Source of the DNA: Natrinema marinum
Lineage (GTDB): Archaea; Halobacteriota; Halobacteria; Halobacteriales; Natrialbaceae
Length of the DNA: 64,000 nucleotides
Direction of reading: 5' to 3'
Assembly: GCF_024296685.1 (NCBI RefSeq)
Contig: NZ_CP100763.1
Location: forward strand, 2,914,001 to 2,978,000
The notes below the pieces were generated by a model, which made no database searches, was not told the DNA's origin, and was given only the letters and a program-made list of their open reading frames with translations. Each line of letters starts with the position of its first letter. The stretch's first letter is position 1. Positions 50,676-52,031 of the stretch are shown in pieces. The position numbers were made by a program, and so were the translations under genes.

Positions 50676-51122
50676 TCACGCGCGCTCGGCGGTCACCGCG
50701 ACGCCGCGGTTTCGCCGCTCGTCGATCGGCTCGATCGAAAACCCCAGTCGCTCGTAGAACGGGCGCACGCCGTCGTCGAACCGGGCCGTGAGCCGTCCCT
50801 CGCGTTCGAGGGCGCGTTCGATCAACGCTCGGCCGATCCCCTGGCCCCGATGGCGACGCCGGACGCCGATCGCGCCGACGTGCGCGCCGGAGTCGGCCGC
50901 TATGGGCTCGAGGACGGCCGTGCCGAGGATCCGCTCGCTGCCGTCGTCGCCGTCGCTACTGCCACCGTGGCCGTCGGTCTCCGTTCCCCCTCGTCGATCG
51001 CCCGCGACGAGGACGTCCCCGGCGGCGATCCGCTCCTCGACGTCGCCGGGCTCGAGCAACGCGGCGTCGAGGATCCGTCGGACCTCGAGGGCGTCGTCTG
51101 GGGTGGCGGTACGGACGAACAT
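50676..51122 (-). CDS. GNAT family N-acetyltransferase
   Basis: 148 residues. FVRTATPDDALEVRRILDAA, then LEPIAADSGAHVGAIGVRRRHRGQGIGRALIE gives motif A (RRRHRGQGIGRAL) with the acetyl-CoA pyrophosphate loop, and FDDGVRPFYERLGFSIEP is motif B. It should acetylate a small amine or protein N-terminus; the substrate is not known. Three bases separate it from the redoxin upstream in the same minus-strand unit. Confidence 0.88.
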   Translation of the reverse strand: MFVRTATPDDALEVRRILDAALLEPGDVEERIAAGDVLVAGDRRGGTETDGHGGSSDGDDGSERILGTAVLEPIAADSGAHVGAIGVRRRHRGQGIGRALIERALEREGRLTARFDDGVRPFYERLGFSIEPIDERRNRGVAVTAERA

Positions 51123-51668: not shown

Positions 51669-51707
51669 ATTGCCCTTTCCCTGCGGCCCGGCAAAACGAC
51701 CGGGCTT

Positions 51708-52031
51708 TCACTCCCCTGCGTCGACCCGTCGTCTCCTTTCGTCGGCCGTCGCGGGCGGTTCGTTACTCGAGCGGGCGTCGCTGCCGCCCTTGATGAGCCG
51801 CAACACCGTCACGTGGTCGTGTTCGACCGGCTGATCCTCCGGGACCGGTCGCCCGTCGACGAGGACGCTCACTTCGTGGGGGCTCAGATCGATCTCGCGG
51901 AGCAGGTCCGCGTAGGTCGGCGTCGTATCGGCCTCGGAACCGCCAGCGCTCTCGTCCGCCTCGGCGTCTGCCACCGCCTCGAGTTCGAGTTCGAAGGTAT
52001 CCTCGCCCTTGACGTCGACGGTGACGTGCAT
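51708..52031 (-). CDS. samp2: SAMP2-type ubiquitin-like modifier with extra C-terminal tail
   Basis: 107 residues. The beta-grasp fold is clear: MHVTVDVKGEDTFELELE, TYADLLREIDLSPHEVSV, LVDGRPVPEDQPVEHDHVTV, LRLIKGG, close to Haloferax SAMP2 through the diglycine at residues 82-83. SAMPs attach by their C-terminal glycine to lysines (sampylation) and, for SAMP2, also serve sulfur transfer to tRNA. Here 24 residues (SDARSSNEPPATADERRRR to GE) follow the diglycine, and residues 20-38 hold an acidic loop. It needs trimming to act as a modifier, as ubiquitin precursors do, or has another role (inference). It shares the strand of the redoxin and GNAT genes. Confidence 0.8.
   Translation of the reverse strand: MHVTVDVKGEDTFELELEAVADAEADESAGGSEADTTPTYADLLREIDLSPHEVSVLVDGRPVPEDQPVEHDHVTVLRLIKGGSDARSSNEPPATADERRRRVDAGE

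Follow-up and report, generated by a model that had tools for sequence, protein, structure and literature searches.

The window, a stretch of 64,000 nt from the genome of Natrinema marinum, carries on its minus strand a gene for a SAMP2-like modifier (samp2), followed by genes for a redoxin and a GNAT acetyltransferase (Table 1). The initial annotation had described the modifier as having 24 residues after its diglycine, and this description holds: in the ORF the motif LRLIKGG is followed by SDARSSNEPPATADERRRRVDAGE.

Table 1. The samp2 locus of Natrinema marinum (positions in the window) and SAMP2 fusions at the loci of relatives
Feature	Position or locus	Strand	Basis or remark
samp2 gene, putative precursor of SAMP2 with tail	51708..52031	minus	ORF: ATG at 52031, 107 codons, TGA at 51710-51708
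SAMP2 domain, residues 1-83, end LRLIKGG	51783..52031	minus	Pfam and NCBIfam matches, structure model
Diglycine, residues 82-83, codons GGC GGC; predicted cleavage site immediately 3'	51783..51788	minus	Sequence, alignment
Tail SDARSSNEPPATADERRRRVDAGE, 24 residues after the diglycine	51711..51782	minus	Translation of ORF
TGA, sole stop separating samp2 from the redoxin gene in the shared frame	51708..51710	minus	Codon list
Inverted repeat GCCCGG/CCGGGC with T-rich loop, in the 39-nt spacer just 3' of the TGA	51686..51705	minus	Sequence
Redoxin gene, AhpC/TSA-like, 180 aa	51126..51668	minus	PF00578 1.5e-15; fused to SAMP2 in relatives
GNAT acetyltransferase gene, next after redoxin	50676..51122	minus	PF13508 2.2e-11; homologues fused to SAMP2 in g57
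SAMP2-redoxin (AhpC/TSA-like) in-frame fusions	L077, L079, L084, L087, L089, L092, L099 (Halorussus); L120, L122, L131, L132, L135
SAMP2-GNAT in-frame fusions	L340, L382, L418, L434, L439, L457, L458, L477 (g57); L353 (g30)

The product belongs to the SAMP2 family by whole-length matches to curated models, PF21965 of Pfam (4e-30 for residues 1-83, model positions 1-63 of 63) and the equivalog NF041919 of NCBIfam (118 bits against a cut-off of 70, positions 1-66 of 66), and by the diglycine encoded where the beta-grasp domain ends. G82 and G83 are invariant in an alignment of 67 SAMP2 sequences, and the N. marinum protein has an intact core that retains LRLIKGG and the invariant positions. The protein shares its family and the LRLIKGG fold end with the Haloferax volcanii SAMP2 (PDB 2l32, 4hrs; match 7.8e-20 over residues 32-85). 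Unlike that protein, it has an acidic loop after residue 20, and it continues for 24 residues where the Haloferax genes surveyed stop at the diglycine or two residues further. The acidic segment, residues 21-40 (51912-51971, minus strand), is a variable insert in the SAMP2 fold, its length and sequence differing among members of the genus.

In the structure model of the tailed protein most of the beta-grasp fold has a pLDDT of 84-88, with lower values in the acidic loop 21-40; no secondary structure is predicted for the tail (pLDDT 51-62). A model of a SAMP2-redoxin fusion likewise places a segment of pLDDT <50 (residues 63-75), beginning at the diglycine, between two confident domains. With the diglycine in a flexible segment, both predicted models leave the cut site accessible.

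SAMP2 is encoded once in the genome, a single contig of 3.77 Mb; two other matches have E-values of 0.14 and 0.31. A search of the 3.77 Mb for a further SAMP2 gene that could replace the tailed one found none, so the tailed copy must carry any SAMP2 function.

Past the diglycine, 24 codons lead to a single TGA, and a further 13 codons lead to the ATG of the redoxin gene, which lies in the frame of samp2. The TGA closes the frame between the diglycine and the redoxin domain; without this one stop, which separates two in-frame genes, the locus would encode a SAMP2-redoxin fusion. A redoxin gene was found within 1400 nt of SAMP2 at 47 of 216 loci, directly downstream in most and always on the same strand, and a GNAT gene adjoins SAMP2 downstream in many haloarchaea. 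According to a survey of 2010, the neighbours include GNAT in Halobacteria and a peroxiredoxin in Thermococcales (PMC2948915). The N. marinum redoxin has HAGQC in place of the C-x-x-C (e.g. YRCRNC) of most fused relatives, and has therefore lost one of the two redoxin cysteines.

C-termini of SAMP2 were surveyed in 384 haloarchaeal genomes, 376 of them in an even sample of the class and eight more from the genus of N. marinum. The protein ends exactly at the diglycine in 259 genomes, has 1-28 residues beyond it in 104 and is part of an in-frame fusion in 21, so that 125 of the 384 SAMP2, the N. marinum type included, do not end at the diglycine as encoded. The initial annotation knew of no haloarchaeal SAMP2 with such a tail. 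As a statement about genomes this does not stand, given the 104 tailed cases, although natural tails on haloarchaeal SAMP2, and fusions of SAMP2 to a redoxin or a GNAT domain, are not described in the literature searched, mostly open-access papers. The annotation had also reasoned that many close relatives ending at the diglycine would expose the tail as a local error. This applies in part only: within the genus 18 of 29 SAMP2 end at the diglycine and 11 are tailed, the ten tails other than that of N. marinum being just 2-3 residues long. Tails starting with Ser recur among these genus members.

All 40 genomes surveyed from another genus, coded g30, have a tailed or fused SAMP2, often with acidic ATDGA-like tails (e.g. 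L426, L427, L429, L447); the similarity of these tails suggests that the tail may be under selection in that genus. In one genome (G394:C1:2116505-2116701) two SAMP2 matches overlap but lie in different frames, which probably reflects a frameshift in the copy or an error of assembly.

Directly after the diglycine Ser and Ala prevail. When tails are collapsed by genus, Ser occupies this P1' position in 16 of 53 (about 9% of spacer codons encode it), and Pro, at about 11% of spacer codons, in none of the 53. The bias would fit a constraint imposed by a protease, though it is not independent of ancestry.

The lengths of the tails bear on their origin. In relatives that end at the diglycine the next in-frame stop lies at a median distance of 64 codons, and within 24 codons in 25% of cases. 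The surveyed tails have a median of 4 residues, most having 2-6. Chance read-through as the source of all tails is rejected by this comparison (4 residues seen, 64 codons expected), and the short tails must accordingly be held short. Among all tails, only the 24 residues of N. marinum appear to fit chance read-through. A tail this long occurs once in the genus; it contains a basic RRRR run and adjacent AGG AGA codons, which have a frequency of 2.5 per 1000 in five genes of the window. Since its length is unique in the genus and typical of chance read-through, and its Arg codons are rare, the tail most likely arose when the stop was lost in this lineage and the frame ran on into the spacer ahead of the redoxin gene. 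The loss was probably recent, the tail resembling newly recruited spacer in its length and its AGG AGA codons.

In another member of the genus (L021) the tail is SKW, also starting with AGC, and a short similar spacer block is kept. The surviving block resembles the region of the GCCCGG/CCGGGC inverted repeat. In L021 the GNAT gene comes directly next, and a search of 1400 nt downstream gave no redoxin-like sequence. We infer that the 24-residue tail would be an extension of an earlier short tail; the stop loss probably happened in a lineage whose ancestor bore a short tail starting with Ser.

The 21 fusions of the final set comprise 12 to redoxin and nine to GNAT, and Pfam confirms examples of both. 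The redoxin fusions fall in groups f6 g37 (which matches the Halorussus loci), f4 g34, g68 and g74, and the GNAT fusions in genus g57 (all eight genomes) and once in g30. An earlier pass over 216 loci, named genomes included, had yielded 17 redoxin fusions, seven named Halorussus species among them. The diglycine is kept within the chain in every fusion. Among the redoxin fusions the segment VLRLIKGG varies little or not at all, and it is followed by an unconserved linker. In 10 of the 17 redoxin fusions there is no ATG, GTG or TTG between the diglycine and the redoxin. An internal redoxin start is thus excluded for these ten, and the redoxin must be part of the fused chain. Each fusion-bearing genome has one SAMP2 match.

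JAMM protease genes, which the initial annotation had proposed to look for, are present in N. marinum: the genome encodes JAMM1, recognized by the desampylase equivalog NF041370 (152 bits against a cut-off of 130) and with the metal motif HSHP...SETD in its translation. It also encodes one E1-like protein (UbaA; single ThiF match, 2.7e-82). Across the class the NF041370 cut-off was reached in 289 of 391 genomes and an E-value of <=1e-5 in 296; one genome with a weak match (G106, 3e-6) was scored as lacking JAMM1, which left 295 with the gene. Among the 376 genomes of the class sample, the 281 with JAMM1 have 160 SAMP2 ending at the diglycine, 100 tailed and 21 fused. The 95 without JAMM1 all have SAMP2 ending at the diglycine, with no tail and no fusion. 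A tail or fusion is therefore found in 121 of 281 genomes with JAMM1 and in 0 of 95 without it (Fisher P = 9e-20).

Since species are not independent, genera were collapsed and the association was simulated on a tree. P was 2e-5 at the genus level and 1.0e-4 with genera collapsed within families. Under an Mk model on the SAMP2 gene tree, which is weak (65 aa), 28-33 tailed tips without JAMM1 were expected, and zero was reached in 0 of 20000 runs (P <5e-5); a sign test on independent pairs had only three supported pairs and no power. JAMM1 has been lost from whole genera (e.g. g33, g44, g46, g47 and g60, in the 95 SAMP2-bearing genomes of the class), with weaker JAB proteins kept. JAMM1 does not require tails, as the 160 genomes with JAMM1 and a terminal diglycine attest. 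The direction of the dependence may be either way: JAMM1 permits tails, or tails forbid the loss of JAMM1. Both directions imply that tails are matured by JAMM1.

N. marinum thus has residues past the diglycine in its sole SAMP2 copy and a JAMM1 gene, in a class where tails are absent without JAMM1, as expected of a ubiquitin-like (Ubl) precursor processed by a JAMM protease. We consider it probable that its SAMP2 is a precursor matured by JAMM1, the stop having been lost and translation running 24 codons into the spacer. The initial annotation had offered a JAMM-trimmed precursor and a lost stop as alternatives; the two are compatible and are favoured together by the presence of JAMM1, the contrast of 121/281 with 0/95 and a tail of the kind that stop loss leaves. 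In the proposed sequence of events, samp2 would be translated as a precursor up to the TGA ahead of the redoxin gene. JAMM1, the desampylase whose gene lies at another place in the genome, would cut directly after the diglycine, leaving a mature SAMP2 of 83 residues that ends in a free glycine. Activation by UbaA, the only E1-like enzyme, would then prepare it for conjugation and for tRNA thiolation or sulfur relay. Both translation of the tail and its removal by JAMM1 are inferred here from the genome. Because JAMM1 would accept any sequence beyond the diglycine at which it cuts, a stop codon at that point would be dispensable in haloarchaea that have this protease.

Such processing is known from biochemical work on related proteins. 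HvJAMM1 hydrolyses linear linkages of SAMP1-3 (PMC4048286). In vitro it severs a linear SAMP1-MoaE fusion precisely behind the glycine of SAMP1, and H. volcanii needs jamm1 for the fusion to function in vivo (PMC4443979). The likeness lies in a beta-grasp modifier with protein past the diglycine and in JAMM1 freeing a functional glycine; the difference is that those fusions join a MoaD/SAMP1-type modifier to MoaE, whereas here SAMP2 carries a spacer tail, a redoxin or a GNAT domain. The H. volcanii SAMP1-MoaE fusion was engineered, natural archaeal Ubl-MoaE fusions being reported only from Crenarchaeota (PMC4443979). In Caldiarchaeum subterraneum, where residues are also encoded past the diglycine, SAMP precursors are processed by CsJAMM and CsRpn11 removes a 9-residue tail of CsUb; that lineage is distant, its modifiers and proteases are separate ones, and tails were not compared there with the presence of the protease (PMC6043591). 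On the other side, where PMC8832034 cites Hepowit 2012, HvJAMM1 is reported to cleave linear fusions in vitro without needing the SAMP1 diglycine, which counts against reading the tailed SAMP2 as a precursor. The closest relative in eukaryotes, Urm1, is synthesized in its mature form (PMC12625751).

The alternative that survives best, though we regard it as unlikely, is that the tail is a neutral stop loss and that a peptidase other than JAMM1 exposes the diglycine, either a carboxypeptidase or the JAMM2-type protein that the N. marinum genome also encodes. Most natural tails are short enough to be within reach of general peptidases, and short ones might be trimmed by another peptidase. The fusions, however, with 128-219 added residues, need an endoprotease, and recombinant HvJAMM2 was reported not to be functional (PMC4895103). 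Moreover, another JAB protein is retained in each of the 55 JAMM1-less genomes tested, and still tails are missing wherever JAMM1 is; the Prok-JAB matches of these genomes are weaker (about 30-50 bits, mostly one each, against 81 bits for the JAMM1 of N. marinum).

It is considerably less probable that SAMP2 of N. marinum stays unmatured, the tail blocking activation and the protein decaying or acting only non-covalently. The rare codons and the RRRR run of the tail, unlike established haloarchaeal sequence, would suit such decay, but the core is intact, the copy is the sole one, the E1 and JAMM1 genes are both present, and the diglycine is kept also in relatives with longer additions. That a sequencing or assembly error erased the true stop at the diglycine is the least credible explanation: so long a tail occurs in only one genome of the genus, but that genome is a single finished contig, there is no stop near the diglycine in this frame, so that more than a trivial error would be needed, and Ser-starting tails appear repeatedly in the genus.

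Maturation by JAMM1, preferred here for N. marinum, could extend further. In eukaryotes, the precursors of ubiquitin and SUMO and the fusions of ubiquitin to ribosomal proteins have a tail or carrier that is removed by a processing protease, and the fusion partner varies. The haloarchaeal proteins resemble them in having a tail or carrier past the diglycine and differ in that the protease class is not homologous. Tentatively, and short of an even chance, we suggest that haloarchaeal SAMP2 is widely a JAMM1-dependent proprotein, carried in several lineages on a redoxin or acetyltransferase much as ubiquitin is on ribosomal proteins. In addition, SAMP2 may preferentially modify its redoxin carrier, which would recall the link of eukaryotic Urm1 to the peroxiredoxin Ahp1. 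What seems new, as far as genome comparison goes, is that Ubl precursors and carrier fusions, known elsewhere, are now seen for SAMP2 and tied to the presence or absence of JAMM1.

Taken singly, the N. marinum tail departs only modestly from known SAMP2; the wider pattern to which it belongs seems not to have been described in the literature searched. The gene order and the fused proteins tie SAMP2 to a redoxin, close to the Urm1-peroxiredoxin theme. If the proposed maturation is true, jamm1 should be needed for SAMP2 function in species with tails and not in those ending at the diglycine, and the survey names many cultivable species in which the JAMM1-tail pattern can be tested. Haloarchaeal JAMM1 would then be a maturation protease of SAMP2 precursors besides being a desampylase, and a Ubl precursor stage would be widespread among archaea without E2 and E3 enzymes.
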